In this document: positions 36,753 through 59,596 of the stretch, one piece after another
Layout: each line of letters begins with the position of its first letter
Numbering within the stretch: position 1 is the first letter of the stretch
Assembly: GCA_027076405.1 (NCBI GenBank)
Contig: JALTJN010000143.1
Span: 1 to 64,000 of the forward strand
Length of the DNA: 64,000 nt
Source: Chromatiales bacterium
Lineage (GTDB): Bacteria > Pseudomonadota > Gammaproteobacteria > UBA6429
Direction of reading: 5' to 3'
The notes under the pieces: generated by a model
What the model was told of the DNA's origin: nothing
Database searches by the model: none
The model's input: only the letters and a program-made list of their open reading frames with translations
Made by a program: the position numbers and the translations under genes

Positions 36753-38039
36753 ATGAGAATCGTATTAATAGGTGCACCAGGCGGCGGCAAGGGCACACAG
36801 GCCAAATTACTAGTTGATAAATATGGCATACCGCAAATTTCAACAGGCGACTTATTACGGGCAGCGGTAAAAGCTGGCTCACCATTAGGTATGAAAGCCA
36901 AGCAAGCCATGGATGCCGGCCAACTGGTTTCGGATGAAATTGTACTTGGCATGATTAAAGAGCGTCTTGCAGAGAGTGATGCACAAAATGGCTTTATTCT
37001 TGATGGGTTTCCAAGAAATATTCCCCAGGCTGAAGCATTGGACAGCCTGCTAGATGATGTTGATAAGCCATTACAGGCAGCTTTACTTATCGATGTTGAA
37101 TTCAATATCTTAATGCAACGCTTAACCGGTCGTCGTACCTGTGGTTCATGCGGTCAGATGTTTAATATCCATACTTCACCACCTCGTATCGAAGGTCGTT
37201 GCGATAAATGCGGTGGTAGTTTAGAACATCGGGCAGATGATAATGAAGAAACGATCGGTAATCGATTAAAAGTATATGAAGCAGAAACAGCACCATTAGT
37301 TGATTATTTCCGAAAGCAAGGTAAATTACGCACTGTTCGGGGTGTTGGTGAAGTGGATTCAATTTTTGCAGCTATTCAGCGTGTGCTTGAAAGTTTACCA
37401 AGTGGGCAGGCTGCGACTACTGCATCAGCCAGTGAAGAAAAAGAGGAAGAAAAACCGGTTGAAGCAGCGGCAGAGAAAAAAGTTGTGAAGAAGAAAAAAG
37501 CCAGCAAGAAAAAAACGGCGGCGAAGAAAAAAACAAGTAAGAAGAAGACAGCTAAGAAAAAAGCAACCAAGAAAAAAGCAACCAAGAAAAAGACCAGCAA
37601 GAAGAAAGCTGCGAAGAAAAAAGTAGCAAAAAAGAAAGTTGCCAAGAAAAAAATAGCCAAGAAGAAAGCGAAGAAAAAGATCGTCAAGAAGAAAATAGCT
37701 AAGAAAAAGAAAGTTACCAAGAAGAAGGCGAAGAAAAAAGCCAAGAAAAAGGTAGCGAAGAAAAAGGCCAAGAAAAAGGTAGCGAAGAAAAAGGCCAAGA
37801 AAAAAGTAGCGAAGAAAAAGGCCAAGAAAAAAGTAGCGAAGAAAAAGGCCAAGAAAAAGGTAGCGAAGAAAAAGGCCAAGAAAAAGGTAGCGAAGAAAAA
37901 GGCCAAGAAAAAGGCCAAGAAAAAGGTAGCGAAGAAAAAGGCCAAGAAAAAAGTAGCGAAGAAAAAAGCCAAGAAAAAGGTAGCCAAAAAGAAGACAAAG
38001 AAAAAAGCAAAAAAGAAAAGTTCTCGTAAAAAAAGTTAA
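36753..38039 (+). CDS. adk: Adenylate kinase with a zinc-type LID and a lysine-rich histone-like tail
   Basis: A 428-residue protein, double the usual length. Residues 1-214 are a complete adenylate kinase: GAPGGGKGTQ P-loop (7-16), STGDLLR, LDGFPRN (83-89), RRTCGSCGQ. The LID has four cysteines, C130, C133, C150, C153 (C-x2-C-x16-C-x2-C), a zinc-binding form common in Gram-positive bacteria and less usual in gammaproteobacteria. An acidic linker (225-241) leads to a tail (242-428) of about 190 residues, nearly all K, A and V with some T and S, built on (V/A)AKKKAKKK units. Such tails resemble histone H1-like bacterial proteins and should bind nucleic acid or polyphosphate. The reading frame is unbroken and followed by a terminator. 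Confidence 0.93.
   Translation: MRIVLIGAPGGGKGTQAKLLVDKYGIPQISTGDLLRAAVKAGSPLGMKAKQAMDAGQLVSDEIVLGMIKERLAESDAQNGFILDGFPRNIPQAEALDSLLDDVDKPLQAALLIDVEFNILMQRLTGRRTCGSCGQMFNIHTSPPRIEGRCDKCGGSLEHRADDNEETIGNRLKVYEAETAPLVDYFRKQGKLRTVRGVGEVDSIFAAIQRVLESLPSGQAATTASASEEKEEEKPVEAAAEKKVVKKKKASKKKTAAKKKTSKKKTAKKKATKKKATKKKTSKKKAAKKKVAKKKVAKKKIAKKKAKKKIVKKKIAKKKKVTKKKAKKKAKKKVAKKKAKKKVAKKKAKKKVAKKKAKKKVAKKKAKKKVAKKKAKKKVAKKKAKKKAKKKVAKKKAKKKVAKKKAKKKVAKKKTKKKAKKKSSRKKS
37752..38006 (+). repeat. 27-bp coding tandem repeat in the adk tail
   Basis: Nine units encoding VAKKKAKKK start at 37752, 37779, 37806, 37833, 37860, 37887 (with an extra 12 bp), 37926, 37953 and 37980. Units differ mainly by AAG/AAA and GCC/AGC changes. 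All changes are in multiples of three, so copy number can vary without frame loss. Confidence 0.9.
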
Positions 38040-53340: not shown

Positions 53341-53763
53341 CTAAAAAGGTTTTACTGTTGCCAAAATGATAATGGCAACCAAAATTAAAACGGGTGCTTC
53401 GTTAAACCAGCGATAAAAAACATGGGAGTGCTTATTTCGGTCATTTTTAAAATCTGCAACATATTTCCCACAGATTAAGTGGTAAATGACCAGGAGAATA
53501 ATTAAGGCTAATTTGATATGTAGCCATAGATCCTGCCCGAAGCTCGCCCATGCGTAGTCAACTAACATGGCAATACCAAAACCTATGGTAAAAATAGCAC
53601 CGGGGGTCATAATGCCGTAAAAAAGTTTTCGCTCCATAATTTTAAAGCGGTCGTGGCTGATTTTATCATCAGACATGGCGTGGTAAACAAAAAGGCGCGG
53701 TAAATAAAATAAACCGGCAAACCATGTCACCATAAAAATTAAATGTAATGCTTTTAACCACAT
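53341..53763 (-). CDS. hemJ: Protoporphyrinogen oxidase HemJ-like membrane protein
   Basis: A 140-residue four-helix membrane protein of the HemJ/UPF0093 family: WLKALHLIFMVTWFAGLFYLPRLFVYH with the functional His in the first helix, FYGIMTPGAIFTIGFGIAML, WLHIKLALIILLVIYHLICGKY and RWFNEAPVLILVAIIILATVKPF. HemJ oxidises protoporphyrinogen IX in bacteria lacking HemG/HemY. Minus strand, single gene, upstream of the porin region. Confidence 0.9.
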   Translation of the reverse strand: MWLKALHLIFMVTWFAGLFYLPRLFVYHAMSDDKISHDRFKIMERKLFYGIMTPGAIFTIGFGIAMLVDYAWASFGQDLWLHIKLALIILLVIYHLICGKYVADFKNDRNKHSHVFYRWFNEAPVLILVAIIILATVKPF

Positions 53764-53787
53764 AGAAGTAGCCTGTATCTATTATTT

Positions 53788-53816
53788 GTAGGTCGGGCTT
53801 CAGCCCGACGCGGTGT
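53788..53816 (+). repeat. REP-like palindrome, single copy
   Basis: TGTAGGTCGGGCTTCAGCCC followed by GACGCGGTG, stem GTCGGGC/GCCCGAC. Same plan as the pair at 35134-35242. Immediately upstream of hemJ. Confidence 0.8.
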
Positions 53817-53857
53817 ATGTTAAGTCAGCTAATATATGTTATAGCAATCACTTTGTT

Positions 53858-53968
53858 TTGCCGCGGAGGACACTAAGAACACGAAGGGGATATTTTTAAA
53901 ATACTTAAATTTCCAGCTTATCTATGTGTCCAGCGGTTTAACTGTTTTTCTTTGTGTCCTTCGTGACT
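53858..53968. repeat. Second-family repeat, diverged inverted pair
   Basis: GCCGCGGAGGACACTAAGAA then CACGAAGGGG (53860-53889) and, facing the other way, TTTTTCTTTGTGTCCTTCGT then GACTAAA (53945-53971). Between them AT-rich sequence with GTCCAGCGG. Similar in plan to the 13322 family. Confidence 0.55.
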
Positions 53969-53977
53969 AAATTTCTT

Positions 53978-54487
53978 TTATGAATTTTGTTCAAGTATGG
54001 AAATAATTCTTTTTTTCCAAACAGTCATATTCATTTCACCAATTTTCTTTTTGATAATTTTTCCTTTGTCATCAATAAGAAAGGTGGTTGGTGTCAGGCT
54101 GACTTTTCCAAATGCCTGAACAGCTTCACCTTTTAAATCAAATGCAATTCGGTAAGGGACTTTTTTTTGTTTTACCATTTCCATAACATAATCCGGGCGA
54201 TCATAAGGCATAGCAATACCAATTATTTCTAAACCTTTTGGGTGTAACTCGTGATAAAGCTCAATTAAATGAGGTATTTCTTTAATGCAGCCCGGACAGG
54301 ACGTTGCCCAAAAGGTAATTAAAACAGGTTTTCCTTTCAGGCTGGAGAGTGATAATTTTTTTCTATCAAGCATCTGCAAAGTAATATTGGGTGCTTGTTG
54401 TGCTCCCGAGGGCGCAATCCACAAATAAGCAATGCTACTAATAATAAGAATAGCGAAGAGACCAATGAGTATTTCTTTGATTTTCAT
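53978..54487 (-). CDS. TlpA-family thioredoxin
   Basis: A 169-residue exported or membrane-anchored thioredoxin: N-terminal helix 8-25, then LSSLKGKPVLITFWATSCPGCIKEIPHL with C64 and C67 (CPGC), the TlpA insertion (IIGIAMPYDRPDYVMEM), and SLTPTTFLIDDKGKI with the cis-proline. Periplasmic reductant role, possibly for cytochromes; partner unknown. Lies one base after clcA's stop on the same strand. Confidence 0.9.
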   Translation of the reverse strand: MKIKEILIGLFAILIISSIAYLWIAPSGAQQAPNITLQMLDRKKLSLSSLKGKPVLITFWATSCPGCIKEIPHLIELYHELHPKGLEIIGIAMPYDRPDYVMEMVKQKKVPYRIAFDLKGEAVQAFGKVSLTPTTFLIDDKGKIIKKKIGEMNMTVWKKRIISILEQNS

Positions 54488-54488
54488 A

Positions 54489-55802
54489 TTAATTTGTTTT
54501 TTCTTCGTTTGAGTGAGTCGTTTTTGCCAAGTATGCTTCAGCTAATGCTTGATAAATAGGGGTTGGACAAACCAGATGAGAGACTGCCTTTGCAATAAGT
54601 GCGGTTGTCATCAAAGGCATTAACATGGATGAGCTGTCTGTCATTTCCATCACAATGACAAAAGCGGTAATTGGGGTTTGTACCACGCCGGTAAAGTAAC
54701 CAACCATGCCCAGCATGACGACGGCAGCAAAAGGAATGCCTGGCATAAACTGCGCAAGATCTGCTCCCAGACCGGCGCCAACAGAAAGTGATGGGGCAAA
54801 AATACCGCCAGGTATACCACTTAGGTATGATGCAACCGTAGCCAGTAATTTATAAAAAGGAAAAGCAACCGAAACCTCACCACCATCAACCAGATTTTTT
54901 GCTTCCAGATAACCGGTACCAAATGTTTGTCCGTTAGATAAAAAGCCGAGTAGACTTAAAATGAGTCCACAGAAAAAAGCAATGCGAACGGGATAAGCAC
55001 TGAGGTAAGTGGCAATCTGGCGTGTACCAAAAATTAAGCTGGTGCTGAATAAACCACCGAGTAGTCCACCGGTAATACCGCAGGCAATAACTGCAATCCA
55101 TGAGGAAGAAAGTGCAATGCTTTCTGTTGTATGACCAAAATATGTATATTCACCTAATACTGACAGAGCGGTCACGCCCGCAAGTACAACAGCAATGAGT
55201 AATGTCCCACTTTTACGTTCTTCAAAAGATCGGCTCATTTCTTCAATTGCAAAAATAATTCCCGCTAGTGGCGTATTAAATGCGGCAGAAATGCCTGCGG
55301 CACCACCAGCAAGAATCAGGACGCGAGTCATATCCCGGCTGCGCATATTCGGCATAAATTTACGTAAGGAATATAAAATAGATGCACCAACATGAACTGT
55401 TGGCCCTTCACGTCCGATGGATGCCCCGCTGAGCAAGCCCAGACTGGTGAGAAAAATTTTCGCCAGTGCGACTTTTAAAGAAAGCACTTTTGAGCGTAAG
55501 GAGTGGCTAGTCATTGATAATGCAGCGATGGCTTGTGGAATACCGCTACCTTCACTGCCTTGAAAGTAACGTCGGGTAAGCCATGCGATTAGAGTTAAGC
55601 CAATAGGAGGTAAAATATAAGCAACGAAAGGCTGGTTTTGATAAAGCTGATGATACAAGCCGTCTGCATGGTGACTGGCTAAAGCAAAAAATGCTGCTGT
55701 CAGGCCAAGTAATATGGCGCTGCCCCATAAAACAAAGCGAACCTTCCATTTATTGACGGAAAGCAAACGTCTTTTAGTGCGGTGATAGTGTCGCTTATAC
55801 AT
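54489..55802 (-). CDS. clcA: Chloride channel/antiporter, ClcA type
   Basis: A 437-residue CLC family protein with about 11 hydrophobic segments. Selectivity motifs are GSEGSGIPQ, GASIGREGPTVHVGAS with the gating glutamate, FAIEEMSRSF with the proton glutamate, and PGGIFAPSLSVGAGLGA. Retaining both glutamates predicts a 2Cl-/H+ antiporter. Inner membrane. Followed by tlpA. Confidence 0.92.
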   Translation of the reverse strand: MYKRHYHRTKRRLLSVNKWKVRFVLWGSAILLGLTAAFFALASHHADGLYHQLYQNQPFVAYILPPIGLTLIAWLTRRYFQGSEGSGIPQAIAALSMTSHSLRSKVLSLKVALAKIFLTSLGLLSGASIGREGPTVHVGASILYSLRKFMPNMRSRDMTRVLILAGGAAGISAAFNTPLAGIIFAIEEMSRSFEERKSGTLLIAVVLAGVTALSVLGEYTYFGHTTESIALSSSWIAVIACGITGGLLGGLFSTSLIFGTRQIATYLSAYPVRIAFFCGLILSLLGFLSNGQTFGTGYLEAKNLVDGGEVSVAFPFYKLLATVASYLSGIPGGIFAPSLSVGAGLGADLAQFMPGIPFAAVVMLGMVGYFTGVVQTPITAFVIVMEMTDSSSMLMPLMTTALIAKAVSHLVCPTPIYQALAEAYLAKTTHSNEEKTN

Positions 55803-55967: not shown

Positions 55968-56702
55968 TTAAATTCGAATATAAGACCAGCCGTTTTTCTG
56001 GCGTTTAACAATTTGGTTAATTGCTGAGGTAACAACTTTTGCTTCAGGTATTAACTTGAGTTTTTTACCTTGTTCACGTTGAACTCTTTTTAATGCCTGA
56101 CCACAGACCATAACAGCCAGATTGTCATACTTGTGTTGCAGTTTTTGTAGCCGTTTATTGTAATCTTTACCGCTATCGGTGACTAAAGCTAAACCATCAC
56201 TGTGGGTTAAAATTTCAAGCTCCAGTTTACGGGAAGACTTTGAATATTCTTCAAGCAAGGCTTCAGCTTCATTCAGAACAACATTTAATCGTTTTGGATT
56301 CGATGTTGTCACATTTAGCATTAGCTTCCAGTTTTCTTTATTATTTGTTGCTCCGGTACTATGTGAAACCTGAGCAATATCTATAATATCTGTTGGACGC
56401 ATTGCTTGATGAGATACCCAGCCAGCAATAGAGCCAATCATAATAAATAGTGAAGCAGCTGCAAACCATTTAAATTTTATTGAGTTGTCTGGCTTGTTTG
56501 TGCCTTTATGTTGTTCCGGCACTTCAACGCTTTGGTAAGACAACTGCACCAGATTATGTAATTTTTGTAACTTACAAACACGCTGACTCAATTCTGTATT
56601 ATGACGGACAGAATCAAGAATTTCTGCCTGTTCAGCTGCTTCAAGCTGCCCGTCTATAAAGGCGTTTAAATGTTCGTCAGAAAATTGTTTTGTTTTACTC
56701 AT
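55968..56702 (-). CDS. Anti-sigma factor with a DsrE-like periplasmic domain
   Basis: A 244-residue single-pass protein. The N-terminal cytosolic part (1-75) is zinc-less anti-sigma-like (FSDEHLNAFIDGQLEAAEQAEIL), TM at about 78-96, and a periplasmic domain (125-244). Its last 44 residues after C200 (VMVCGQALKRVQ...) align without gaps to the 44 after C104 of the secreted DsrE-like protein at 57629, sharing V-V, I, K, G and aromatic positions; the upstream LMLNV...RLNVVLNEAEALL...LEIL...GLALV block matches as well. So the sensor part is a DsrE-fold domain. ATG follows the sigma stop directly (no gap). Confidence 0.85.
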   Translation of the reverse strand: MSKTKQFSDEHLNAFIDGQLEAAEQAEILDSVRHNTELSQRVCKLQKLHNLVQLSYQSVEVPEQHKGTNKPDNSIKFKWFAAASLFIMIGSIAGWVSHQAMRPTDIIDIAQVSHSTGATNNKENWKLMLNVTTSNPKRLNVVLNEAEALLEEYSKSSRKLELEILTHSDGLALVTDSGKDYNKRLQKLQHKYDNLAVMVCGQALKRVQREQGKKLKLIPEAKVVTSAINQIVKRQKNGWSYIRI

Positions 56703-57257
56703 TTATTTCACTACTCTTATAAAAGTACCCTGTGTGAGTACATTCTGTTCTTTTAGTTCCAATAATTGTTCTGCTAAAGCTTTTCGTGCCCGGTTTAACC
56801 GGCTCATCACTGTGCCGCTTGGGATATCTAAAATTTCAGCCACTTCAGCATAAGAAAAACCTTCCAGATCAACCAATGATAAAACCTGCCGTTGTCCTTG
56901 AGGTAAAGCTGCAACGGCTTGTTGTACTATATCGGTAATGTTTTGTCTTTCTTGAACTAATTCTGGTGTGTCATCGTTAGTAAAAACACACTCATCAATA
57001 TCATCCGTCGGCTTTTGCTGTCTTAAATAATCTCGCCAGCAGTTGGATAAAATAGTAAACAACCAACTATTCATCTTTTTCATATCGCGTAATGAATTTG
57101 CATTACGTATGGCTTTTATTACCGTGTCCTGAACTAAGTCATCTGCAACATCAGCCGCATGACACCATGAATACGCCACCTTATATAAACGGGGACGCAT
57201 TTCTTCCAACTGCTTCTTAAATGTTGGCGTACGACATATAAAATTTAAAGGATTCAT
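56703..57257 (-). CDS. ECF RNA polymerase sigma factor
   Basis: A 184-residue sigma-70-family ECF factor with region 2 (DVADDLVQDTVIKAIRNANSLRDMKKMNSWLFTILSNCWRDYLRQ) and region 4 (LPQGQRQVLSLVDLEGFSYAEVAEILDIPSGTVMSRLNRARKALAEQL). It is followed without gap by its anti-sigma. The upstream region has GGAATA-N16-CGTCTG, the same as before the divergent DsrE-like gene, so it probably transcribes both its own operon and the divergent one. Confidence 0.93.
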   Translation of the reverse strand: MNPLNFICRTPTFKKQLEEMRPRLYKVAYSWCHAADVADDLVQDTVIKAIRNANSLRDMKKMNSWLFTILSNCWRDYLRQQKPTDDIDECVFTNDDTPELVQERQNITDIVQQAVAALPQGQRQVLSLVDLEGFSYAEVAEILDIPSGTVMSRLNRARKALAEQLLELKEQNVLTQGTFIRVVK

Positions 57258-57297
57258 TTATTACAACTTTTATCAAAAAATGAGTTCCTCACTATAG

Positions 57298-57325
57298 CAG
57301 ACGCAACCATATTAAAAAATATTCC
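57298..57325 (-). promoter_or_regulatory. Candidate ECF promoter, sigma operon
   Basis: Minus strand GGAATA (57320-57325), 16-bp spacer, CGTCTG (57298-57303). The -10 lies 40 bp ahead of the sigma ATG. Same boxes and identical spacing as the promoter at 57503-57530. Confidence 0.7.
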
Positions 57326-57502
57326 ATTTTCAGATCACAAAAACAAAATAATTTAAAATTATTACGTTGAAATGATTCTTTTATAAAATAAATCTTTGAT
57401 AGGCAAGGTTGTTTTAAAAATTAGCATCATCTAATAAAGAATATAACTATATTCTTATATTGTGGTGTTAAATGAAATAATTCATTTTATTTAAATTTTC
57501 GT

Positions 57503-57530
57503 GGAATAAATTTGTAACATGCTTCGTCTT
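57503..57530 (+). promoter_or_regulatory. Candidate ECF promoter, DsrE-like/porin unit
   Basis: GGAATA (57503-57508), 16-bp spacer, CGTCTT (57525-57530). About 98 bp before the DsrE-like ATG. The GGAAT/CGTC pattern is typical of ECF sigma promoters and matches that of the sigma operon. Confidence 0.7.
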
Positions 57531-57615
57531 ACTTTAAAGACAAATTCATATACTAAAAAAATGGAATTAGTCTAAATAAAAAAGCGAGATAACTCGTTAC
57601 TGAAATTATCCTCGA

Positions 57616-57628
57616 GGGGGGGAATCTT
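57616..57628 (+). promoter_or_regulatory. Unusual all-G ribosome binding site
   Basis: Seven G followed by AATCTT and the ATG at 57629. The G-run can pair with the anti-SD but is not a standard AGGAGG; the ten-G run at 18782 shares the GGGGGGGAATCTTA string. Confidence 0.5.
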
Positions 57629-58075
57629 ATGAAGTCAAAACTTATAAAAGCGGTTGCGCTTTTAGCATTATTGGCATCGCCGTTTATCGGTAGTCAGGCG
57701 GTTGCTGCGGATAAATCTTTTGTTGATGCGAAAGTGGTATTACAAATCAGTGATCCAAATCCGTTTAAACAAACATTAGTTCTTAATGTTGCAAGTAATA
57801 TCATCAAACACTATGGGCAAGATTCAGTGAAAGTTGAAATCGTTGCTTTTGGCCCGGGTTTACGTTTGTTGTTTGCTGAAAATGCTAATAAAGGCCGTAT
57901 TGCCGCGTTATCAGGTGCGGGTGTAACTTTTAGTGCATGTGCAAATACAACACGTAATATGGGTAAAAAATTAGGTTACCCACCTGTGCTTAACTCGAAA
58001 GCTGTTGTTGTTTCAGCGGGTGTTGTACGTATTATCGATTTGGTTAAAAAAGGTTATACCTTAGTTAAGCCTTAA
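57629..58075 (+). CDS. Secreted DsrE-like protein
   Basis: A 148-residue exported protein (signal peptide to AVA, residue 26). The mature chain is a DsrE/DsrF-like fold: VVLQISDPNPFKQTLVLNVASNII, VKVEIVAFGPGLRLLF, GVTFSACANTTRNMGKKLG, VVVSAGVVRIIDLVKKGY. One cysteine, C104, corresponds to C200 of the anti-sigma domain. DsrE-fold proteins bind or relay sulphur, but exported ones have no known role. It is behind a candidate ECF promoter and precedes a porin gene by 90 bp. Confidence 0.87.
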   Translation: MKSKLIKAVALLALLASPFIGSQAVAADKSFVDAKVVLQISDPNPFKQTLVLNVASNIIKHYGQDSVKVEIVAFGPGLRLLFAENANKGRIAALSGAGVTFSACANTTRNMGKKLGYPPVLNSKAVVVSAGVVRIIDLVKKGYTLVKP

Positions 58076-58165
58076 AAGTTAATTCATAAAGTTCTTAAGT
58101 TAAATCAACCTATTGGTTAAACCTTAATAAAAAAACTAAAGACGTTATTTAGGGGAATTATAAAA

Positions 58166-59596
58166 ATGAAAAAATTTAAAAAAGTTGCACTTGCTGCAGC
58201 GTGTACAGCCATGCTGGGTGGTGTAACTGGTGTAGTTACAACTGCTAATGCTGCTAACTGGTTAATGTTACAAGGTACAGAAAAGCCGGGTGCTGCACCA
58301 CGTGCTAAAGTTTGGGGTTTTCTACAGCCAGGTTTTTTATCGACAAAACCTACAAAATTACCTACAACAGGCGCTGCTCCGGCAGATAAGTTTGCTGGGC
58401 AAAATTCACAGTTTAATGTTCATCAACCAAATCTTGCTAGTAGTACGACATTTCAAATTATGCGTGCACGTATCGGTGTTCGTGGTACTGCTATGCCTTT
58501 AGATAGTAATGTGAATTATTTTATCTTGGCTGAATATGGTAATAATGGTATCACCGCAGTTGGTGGTGGTGGTGGTAGTGTGAAACTAAGTGATGCGACA
58601 GTCACTTTAAATCATATTAAAGGTATGCGAGTTCGAGTTGGTCAAATGAAAATCCCGATGTCTGAAGAAATCTATCAGGGCATTATGACTTTTAACTATG
58701 TCAATATGACTAACATGGCGAATCAACAGTTAATTGAACGCCCATTCTGGACTGATGGTAATACCGCATGTAAGCCGGGTTCTTCAGATGCAAATTATTT
58801 GAGATTCTGTAATGGTAATGCTGATACTCAATTCCGCGGTAGTGCCGTTGCAGTGCGTGATACGGGTATTCAACTCTTTGATACATTCAAATCAGGTTCT
58901 TGGGAGCACAGTTATGCAGTTTTATATGGCAATGGTGGCGTAGGTAAAGATAACCGTGACAATGGTTTTGATACTACTGCATATTGGTCATCTGAAAAGG
59001 TTTATAGTGGTAAAGGTCCATGGCGTGATCATTTAAAAATGTTTGCCTGGAGTACAAGTGGAAAAAGAACCCTATATGATTCAGCCATCTTGAATGCAGG
59101 TGGTTCACTAACAAATGCTGAGAAAGTGTACGATCGTAAAGTATCCGGTTTAGGTCTAACTTACCAAAGAAACAAAATTCGCTTTTGGGCTGAACTTACA
59201 TCTGCAACCGGTATGATCTTTACTGGTTCAACAGGTGGTGCTGTTCCAGGTGCTGTGTCAAATGATGGGACAACTGTCGCTCAATTTACTCTTTCTCCTA
59301 CCGGTCAGTCTTCAGGTGGTTATGTTGATTTTGGGTATAAGATAACTCCTAAAGTTGAGTTAGATGTACGTTATGACTGGTATGATCGCGTAACAAATTT
59401 AGCAAGTACTGCACGACGTGACTATAAAACAACCACGTTAGGGTTACAGTATCGTTTTAACAAGAAAACTAAAATGATAGTTAACTATGAAATGCGTGAA
59501 TTTAATGCTCCTGGATATACTGGTACACAGCCACCTAACAAGGTTGCTGCAACAATGGAAGACAAAATTTCTGCGCAGGTATTTGTTCTGTTCTAA
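58166..59596 (+). CDS. Outer-membrane porin
   Basis: A 476-residue outer-membrane protein: signal peptide cut after ANA (residue 29), then beta-rich sequence with alternating aromatic residues (AKVWGFLQPGFLS; MRARIGVRGTAM; VRVGQMKIPMSEE; LDVRYDWYDRV), ending in SAQVFVLF with the terminal Phe. It resembles OprO/OprP-like porins. Possibly co-transcribed with the DsrE-like gene and so controlled by the ECF factor. A strong terminator follows. Confidence 0.85.
   Translation: MKKFKKVALAAACTAMLGGVTGVVTTANAANWLMLQGTEKPGAAPRAKVWGFLQPGFLSTKPTKLPTTGAAPADKFAGQNSQFNVHQPNLASSTTFQIMRARIGVRGTAMPLDSNVNYFILAEYGNNGITAVGGGGGSVKLSDATVTLNHIKGMRVRVGQMKIPMSEEIYQGIMTFNYVNMTNMANQQLIERPFWTDGNTACKPGSSDANYLRFCNGNADTQFRGSAVAVRDTGIQLFDTFKSGSWEHSYAVLYGNGGVGKDNRDNGFDTTAYWSSEKVYSGKGPWRDHLKMFAWSTSGKRTLYDSAILNAGGSLTNAEKVYDRKVSGLGLTYQRNKIRFWAELTSATGMIFTGSTGGAVPGAVSNDGTTVAQFTLSPTGQSSGGYVDFGYKITPKVELDVRYDWYDRVTNLASTARRDYKTTTLGLQYRFNKKTKMIVNYEMREFNAPGYTGTQPPNKVAATMEDKISAQVFVLF

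Follow-up and report, generated by a model that had tools for sequence, protein, structure and literature searches.

Sulfur-related gene control by extracytoplasmic function (ECF) sigma factors has been described in group ECF26, with the sulfite-responsive systems RpoE4-SorT of S. meliloti and SigE-SorAB of Starkeya novella (PMC3511301, PMC6527743). According to the available text of these papers, the sigma factor comes with an anti-sigma gene and controls few targets, whose promoters match strongly (consensus -35 GGAAT and -10 CGTC; PMC6527743, also PMC3511301), sulfite and tetrathionate are among the signals of the group, and RpoE1 of Starkeya is activated by tetrathionate (PMC6527743). The DsrE-type proteins DsrEFH/TusBCD and DsrE3A share a fold and a conserved cysteine; in those members that have been characterised, this cysteine is loaded with sulfur or thiosulfonate (PMC3397948 and PMC4175335, in their available parts). 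The locus reported here lies in a stretch of 64,000 nucleotides from a Chromatiales bacterium (contig JALTJN010000143.1; the whole stretch is called the window), where an ECF sigma factor and a membrane anti-sigma factor with a DsrE-fold sensor domain are encoded divergently from a DsrE-like protein, predicted to be secreted, and an outer-membrane porin. The ECF sigma factor, the membrane anti-sigma factor, the DsrE fold and the GGAAT/CGTC promoters are already known parts. Apparently new are the DsrE sensor on an anti-sigma factor and the secreted DsrE and porin as predicted targets, and we assign the locus neither to ECF26 nor to DsrEFH. The ECF26 sulfite systems, alike in their sulfur context, drive sulfite-oxidising enzymes, whereas the switch described here is predicted to drive dsrE and the porin gene; the available text of the two ECF26 papers mentions no DsrE sensor domain.

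The sigma factor (56703..57257, minus strand) has regions 2 and 4 (Pfam Sigma70_r2, E=4.7e-14; Sigma70_r4_2, E=7.7e-19). It is adjoined directly downstream by the gene for the anti-sigma factor (55968..56702, minus strand; 244 amino acids), whose transmembrane helix is predicted at residues 78-96 (56415..56471, minus strand) from a hydrophobic stretch. On the plus strand, the DsrE-like protein (57629..58075) begins with a signal peptide of about residues 1-26, read by eye. The periplasmic half of the anti-sigma factor (residues 124-244; 55971..56333, minus strand) and this secreted protein are homologous DsrE-fold domains. They match each other in BLASTP at E=2e-9, and no shuffled sequence reached the score of their alignment. 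Moreover, each has MTH1491 (PDB 1L1S) as its best match, by sequence as well as by fold. Since shuffles fail and each domain matches 1L1S independently, chance similarity is ruled out. The sensor domain matches PF02635 at E=6.6e-7 (30.0 bits, over the gathering score of 22.7), and the secreted protein taken alone stays below that score (19.2 bits); for two related DsrE proteins encoded downstream of anti-sigma genes, one reached 36.5 bits and the other gave no match. In a Pfam scan of eight window proteins, only the anti-sigma factor and the secreted protein matched a DsrE-type family. The likeness of the two domains had been proposed in an earlier note made from the sequence, which called for a comparison with shuffled sequences and of folds; both comparisons bear it out, and the folds are not unrelated.

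Both proteins carry a cysteine at the position conserved in the DsrE family, and the earlier note had already aligned the one with the other: the cysteine of 1L1S aligns with C200 of the sensor (codon 56103..56105, minus strand) and with C104 of the secreted protein (codon 57938-57940). We infer that the two are equivalent to Cys78 of A. vinosum DsrE. All loci pooled, there are 100 different full-length anti-sigma genes, among them the one in the window. C200 is a cysteine in 100/100 of them and W239 a tryptophan in 100/100, and for C200 the invariance extends to proteins only about 27% identical to that of the window (among the first 21 anti-sigma factors aligned). C104 is conserved in 48/49 divergent secreted homologues, the 49th showing a gap in an open reading frame cut at the end of its stretch, and in 13 of the 14 homologues encoded downstream.

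Among solved structures, both domains come nearest to MTH1491 and ST0148 (2PD2), in sequence and in fold alike, and the cysteines align; these two are stand-alone archaeal proteins of unknown function, unlike the sensor fused to an anti-sigma factor. DsrEFH is cytoplasmic (PMC3397948, in the part available), whereas here one DsrE domain forms the part of an anti-sigma factor that lies in the periplasm and the other is predicted to be secreted; a transmembrane helix and a secretion signal, both read from the sequence, stand in place of a cytoplasmic heterohexamer with DsrF and DsrH partners. Like the class I anti-sigma factors (ASDI; PMC7406223, in its available part), the protein has predicted cytoplasmic N-terminal helices (three in the window protein), its gene directly follows the ECF sigma gene (in the window and in 97/100 genes), and it has a transmembrane helix, as do about 65% of ASDI. 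It differs from ASDI in its periplasmic DsrE sensor. The zinc motif Hx3Cx2C, also missing from many ASDI, was found in 0/100 of the anti-sigma factors, which rules out an anti-sigma factor of the zinc type, and the zf-HC2 profile matched at E=0.26 only.

Then, we investigated the conservation of the locus in relatives. A scan of genome contigs gave 16 loci, which bear the labels Gammaproteobacteria, Chromatiales, Ectothiorhodospiraceae, Guyparkeria, Halothiobacillus or Halothiobacillaceae, and 14 of the 16 have the gene order porin, dsrE, divergent sigma, anti-sigma; one of the two others (L006) begins at the anti-sigma gene. From 369 genomes of the class of a Guyparkeria genome (G001), 100 had a match, and by our own reading at least 65 of them, among the matches listed, encode a full-length anti-sigma factor (a full-length-like match in G061, positions 29-244, was left out of the 65). 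In the pooled set, a sigma gene lies directly upstream of the anti-sigma gene in 97/100 cases; of the three others, two (L006, L084) are at the end of a stretch and one (L040) has a sigma match missed by the gap rule. The ECF sigma factor and the DsrE anti-sigma factor are a conserved module, and the sigma/anti-sigma pair read in the earlier note is confirmed. The co-occurrence that this note had asked for was also found, with a divergent DsrE beside 51/100 anti-sigma instances, 43 of them with a porin as well. Because two tandem loci (L047, L051) are each counted twice, the 51 instances represent 49 loci; these two loci have two tandem sigma/anti-sigma pairs, one of them with a DsrE gene downstream, beside a single divergent dsrE-porin. 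Neighbour labels were set after longer flanks had been taken for 20 regions, which left 94 instances classified and 6/100 unclassified (L012 among them): divergent DsrE 51, downstream DsrE 13, divergent porin only 5, SoxB-like 3, other 22. A DsrE gene, divergent or downstream, thus adjoins the anti-sigma gene in 64/94 classified instances. On a midpoint-rooted tree of the anti-sigma factors, divergent DsrE occurs in both halves (19/47 and 32/53 rows), and its label requires at least 15 changes against a mean of 31.2 for shuffled labels, so this gene is either old or often regained, with losses.

In a sample of 398 genomes of the phylum, 11 had a match at E<=1e-25, of which 3 are full-length anti-sigma factors; the other 8 genomes encode secreted-looking DsrE proteins with no adjoining anti-sigma or sigma match. 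The anti-sigma factor had no plasmid match. The ECF/DsrE switch family is apparently widespread and gammaproteobacterial. The idea that DsrE and porin are routine neighbours, switch or no switch, can be dismissed, given that 20/20 stand-alone DsrE loci showed no porin, sigma or anti-sigma match; these loci were hand-picked from the domain-only matches listed (6 of them from genomes with the switch), up to four genes were considered on either side, on contigs that were sometimes short, and five porins served as queries. At loci L105-L113, in large genomes of the phylum sample, there are DsrE proteins with apparent signal peptides and no sigma neighbours. The anti-sigma profile scores them at about 96-107 bits, above the secreted DsrE beside the switch, and the sensor domain may have arisen from somewhere close to them.

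The spacer between the sigma and dsrE genes holds two predicted ECF promoters. GGAATA-N14..18-CGTC occurs once per strand in the 64 kb window, both times in this spacer: GGAATA-N16-CGTC faces sigma/anti-sigma at 57300..57325 (minus strand) and dsrE-porin at 57503..57528 (plus strand). This motif was found before the published ECF26 consensus was consulted, and it fits the -35 GGAAT and -10 CGTC of that group (PMC6527743, available in part). We compared the window with 14 other loci (L006 and L012 were left out, having no divergent DsrE on the contig), and GGAATA-N15..17-CGTC was present in both directions in 15/15; among the 30 sites, the spacer is N16 in 27, N15 in 2 and N17 in 1. In 1000 shuffles of each of five spacer regions, both motifs appeared in 0 and one motif in 0-5. 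The wider count covers 95 of the 100 instances (for 5 no sigma region was read). The 51 instances with a divergent DsrE have both motifs in 31, the sigma side only in 6, the dsrE side only in 1 and neither in 13. Those with no divergent DsrE (44) have the sigma side only in 18, both in 7, the other side only in 1 and neither in 18, and all 7 with both motifs have a divergent porin (L032, L039, L046, L072) or a SoxB-like gene (L020, L026, L028). GGAATA alone, a hexamer count made with no shuffle control and skipping the first anti-sigma gene of L047, lies in both directions in 41/50 divergent instances and in one direction in 9. In this count, six loci of one subclade (L059, L061, L066, L070, L078, L086) have CATC or TATC as -10 on both sides, as if sigma factor and promoters had changed together, and 7 other loci show no clear -10.

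The strict form GGAATAA-N13..15-CGTCT gave 16 matches in 8 whole genomes, against 9 for a reversed control pattern, and 13 of the 16 fall at the switch locus by coordinates, so the predicted regulon would essentially be the locus itself. Because the promoter points both ways in 15/15 loci and, in its strict form, hardly occurs outside the locus in the 8 genomes, the secreted DsrE and the porin are probably targets of the locus's own sigma factor. The suggestion of the earlier note that the porin is an output is supported by this predicted promoter. Sigma relatives at 24 loci in 8 phylum-sample genomes have no GGAATA/CGTC-type promoter, and 6/24 are followed by an open reading frame whose match to the anti-sigma profile covers no more than the N-terminal half of that profile; a looser motif gave counts of little informative value in those 8 genomes, 92-233 matches per strand against 2-58 in the reversed control. 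No plasmid sigma relative exceeds 60% identity, and the neighbours are other genes in the three examined.

The switch is found mainly in sulfur-oxidising bacteria. Counted with relatedness uncontrolled, dsrB is above the cut-off in 51/65 genomes with the anti-sigma factor against 63/304 genomes lacking it, SoxY in 57/65 against 133/304, and one or the other in 63/65 against 138/304. In the available parts of the papers, DsrE3A of Metallosphaera forms a Cys-S-thiosulfonate with tetrathionate, which is passed to TusA (PMC4175335), and Cys78 of Allochromatium DsrE is persulfurated after sulfide treatment (PMC3397948). A sulfur chemistry at the invariant C200, persulfide or other, is plausible. 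On balance, we lean towards a dedicated periplasmic-sulfur switch, in which the DsrE-fold sensor of the anti-sigma factor frees the ECF sigma factor for its own and the dsrE-porin operons. The membrane anti-sigma factor would keep the sigma factor inactive until its periplasmic domain senses a reactive sulfur species, by modification of C200 or binding at it; the best guess for this species would be an oxidised one (tetrathionate or sulfite), or else sulfane sulfur. Once free, the sigma factor would use the GGAATA-N16-CGTC promoters to transcribe both the sigma/anti-sigma operon and, divergently, dsrE-porin. The secreted DsrE would bind or carry the sulfur group by means of C104, and the porin would let the compound through the outer membrane. 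The computation shows that the domains are homologous and have the same fold, that the cysteine is invariant, that the genes are linked and that the promoter motifs are paired; we infer the ligand, the cysteine chemistry, the mode of sigma release and the cargo of the porin.

Several observations weigh against this sulfur switch. The enrichment in dsrB and SoxY is uncorrected for phylogeny, and 2/65 genomes with the anti-sigma factor have neither gene. According to the available text, sulfite, thiosulfate and polysulfide gave no reaction with DsrE3A (PMC4175335), and neither thiosulfate nor glutathione persulfide served DsrEFH as a donor of sulfane sulfur (PMC3397948); these relatives therefore do not point to sulfite or sulfane sulfur at the cysteine. 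Taken together with the promoter class, this chemistry makes tetrathionate the chemically best-supported guess and sulfite the best one by promoter class; the DsrE fold could also bind something other than a sulfur compound. The window sigma factor, likened to ECF26 through its promoter, may belong to another group, and the eight window proteins scanned include no match to a sulfite-oxidase family, hence no adjoining gene for a sulfite-oxidising enzyme of the ECF26 type. One locus (L012) is a real exception, with no DsrE, porin or promoter match in the 1268 bases upstream of sigma (1-1268). Furthermore, 35/94 classified instances have no divergent DsrE, porin or SoxB-like gene (13 with DsrE downstream, 22 other), and the SoxB-like proteins match at 101-180 bits, far under the SoxB cut-off of 550.

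These SoxB/UshA-like periplasmic phosphoesterases replace dsrE-porin at L114 (1-1362), L115 (7286-9460) and L116 (4494-6626), divergent to sigma and with paired promoters between. Another variant (L122, 7096-10689) has thioredoxin-like, Sel1-repeat, DsrE and porin genes divergent to sigma, with a promoter match before dsrE. In Guyparkeria (L011, 7229-8515), the porin weakly matches the model of ExtI, the porin of a selenite/tellurite operon (27.8 bits for a cut-off of 150).

A more specific form of the sulfur switch can be proposed tentatively: a DsrE carrier would have been recruited as periplasmic cysteine sensor, and the sigma factor would make its secreted copy and the porin, so that the carrier can unload the sensor. 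It is possible, if rather doubtful, that the sensor is then sulfur-loaded like the carrier, product and sensor sharing one chemistry. The secreted DsrE could also form a hetero-oligomer with the sensor and so set its activity, whether as a co-sensor, as a decoy or by negative feedback; what is signalled would be the degree of loading of the secreted protein. Both domains have the same fold and cysteine, DsrE-type proteins form complexes (PMC4175335, PMC3397948, in their available parts), a DsrE is kept beside the anti-sigma gene in the 64/94 instances given above, and sigma-driven expression of the secreted DsrE would yield feedback. We nevertheless think direct binding unlikely: in a weak test on the 35 loci with all genes found, corrected for sigma distance, the distances of sensor and secreted DsrE had a partial r of 0.02, against 0.52 for secreted DsrE and porin, and the sensor is kept with no divergent DsrE in the 5 divergent-porin and 3 SoxB-like instances. 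The role of decoy, ligand or competitor that the earlier note proposed for the secreted protein thus finds no support, sensor and secreted DsrE showing no excess co-divergence. Given these two values, the secreted DsrE is more likely a co-regulated output working with the porin than a decoy, as far as such distances can tell; feedback on the sensor is possible.

The cysteine sensor might instead answer the oxidation of thiols in general, or thiophilic metals and metalloids (arsenite, for example), and not sulfur compounds. A single invariant periplasmic cysteine could act as a thiol sensor, DsrE/F-like genes of Thioalkalivibrio, not known to be the same genes, changed under arsenite (PMC6620896, in its available part), and the Guyparkeria porin has its weak match to the selenite/tellurite operon porin. 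We regard this as improbable in view of the strong enrichment of the switch in dsrB/SoxY genomes and of a promoter class common to sulfite and tetrathionate ECF systems (PMC6527743, in the part available); in addition, no metal-resistance family exceeded its Pfam cut-off in the eight window proteins, CopD staying just below on the HemJ-like protein (31.1 against 32.1 bits). An RseA-like envelope-stress switch, with a periplasmic domain that monitors porin or envelope, activation by proteolysis and no role for sulfur, would fit a membrane anti-sigma factor near a porin and is very unlikely, as the sensor part is of the DsrE type and its cysteine never varies, and the near confinement of the strict promoter to the locus in 8 genomes leaves no broad envelope regulon to be seen.

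The porin itself (58166..59596, plus strand) is Porin_O_P-like (Pfam PF07396, E=1.7e-7) and lies beside dsrE in relatives. On the other side, the anti-sigma gene is followed by genes for a CLC channel, a ResA-like thioredoxin and the HemJ-like (UPF0093) protein (53341-55802), an order that is the same in L001, L004, L006, L010 and L016. Elsewhere in the window, an open reading frame of 428 amino acids (36753-38039), which we take to be adenylate kinase-like, ends in a very long lysine/alanine-rich C-terminal repeat tail.

To our knowledge, how sulfur oxidisers sense the sulfur compounds that enter the periplasm is poorly known. The switch is present in at least 65/369 genomes of the class, with C200 kept in 100/100 genes and down to about 27% identity (21 aligned). 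No DsrE-fold sigma-factor switch is described in the titles or available abstracts of the papers that our search of open literature gave, subscription papers and preprints lying outside it; within that scope, no earlier case is seen of a sigma-factor switch to which a domain of the DsrE fold would have been assigned. As its regulon seems very small and has a clear promoter, the ligand, the cysteine and the targets are each directly testable.

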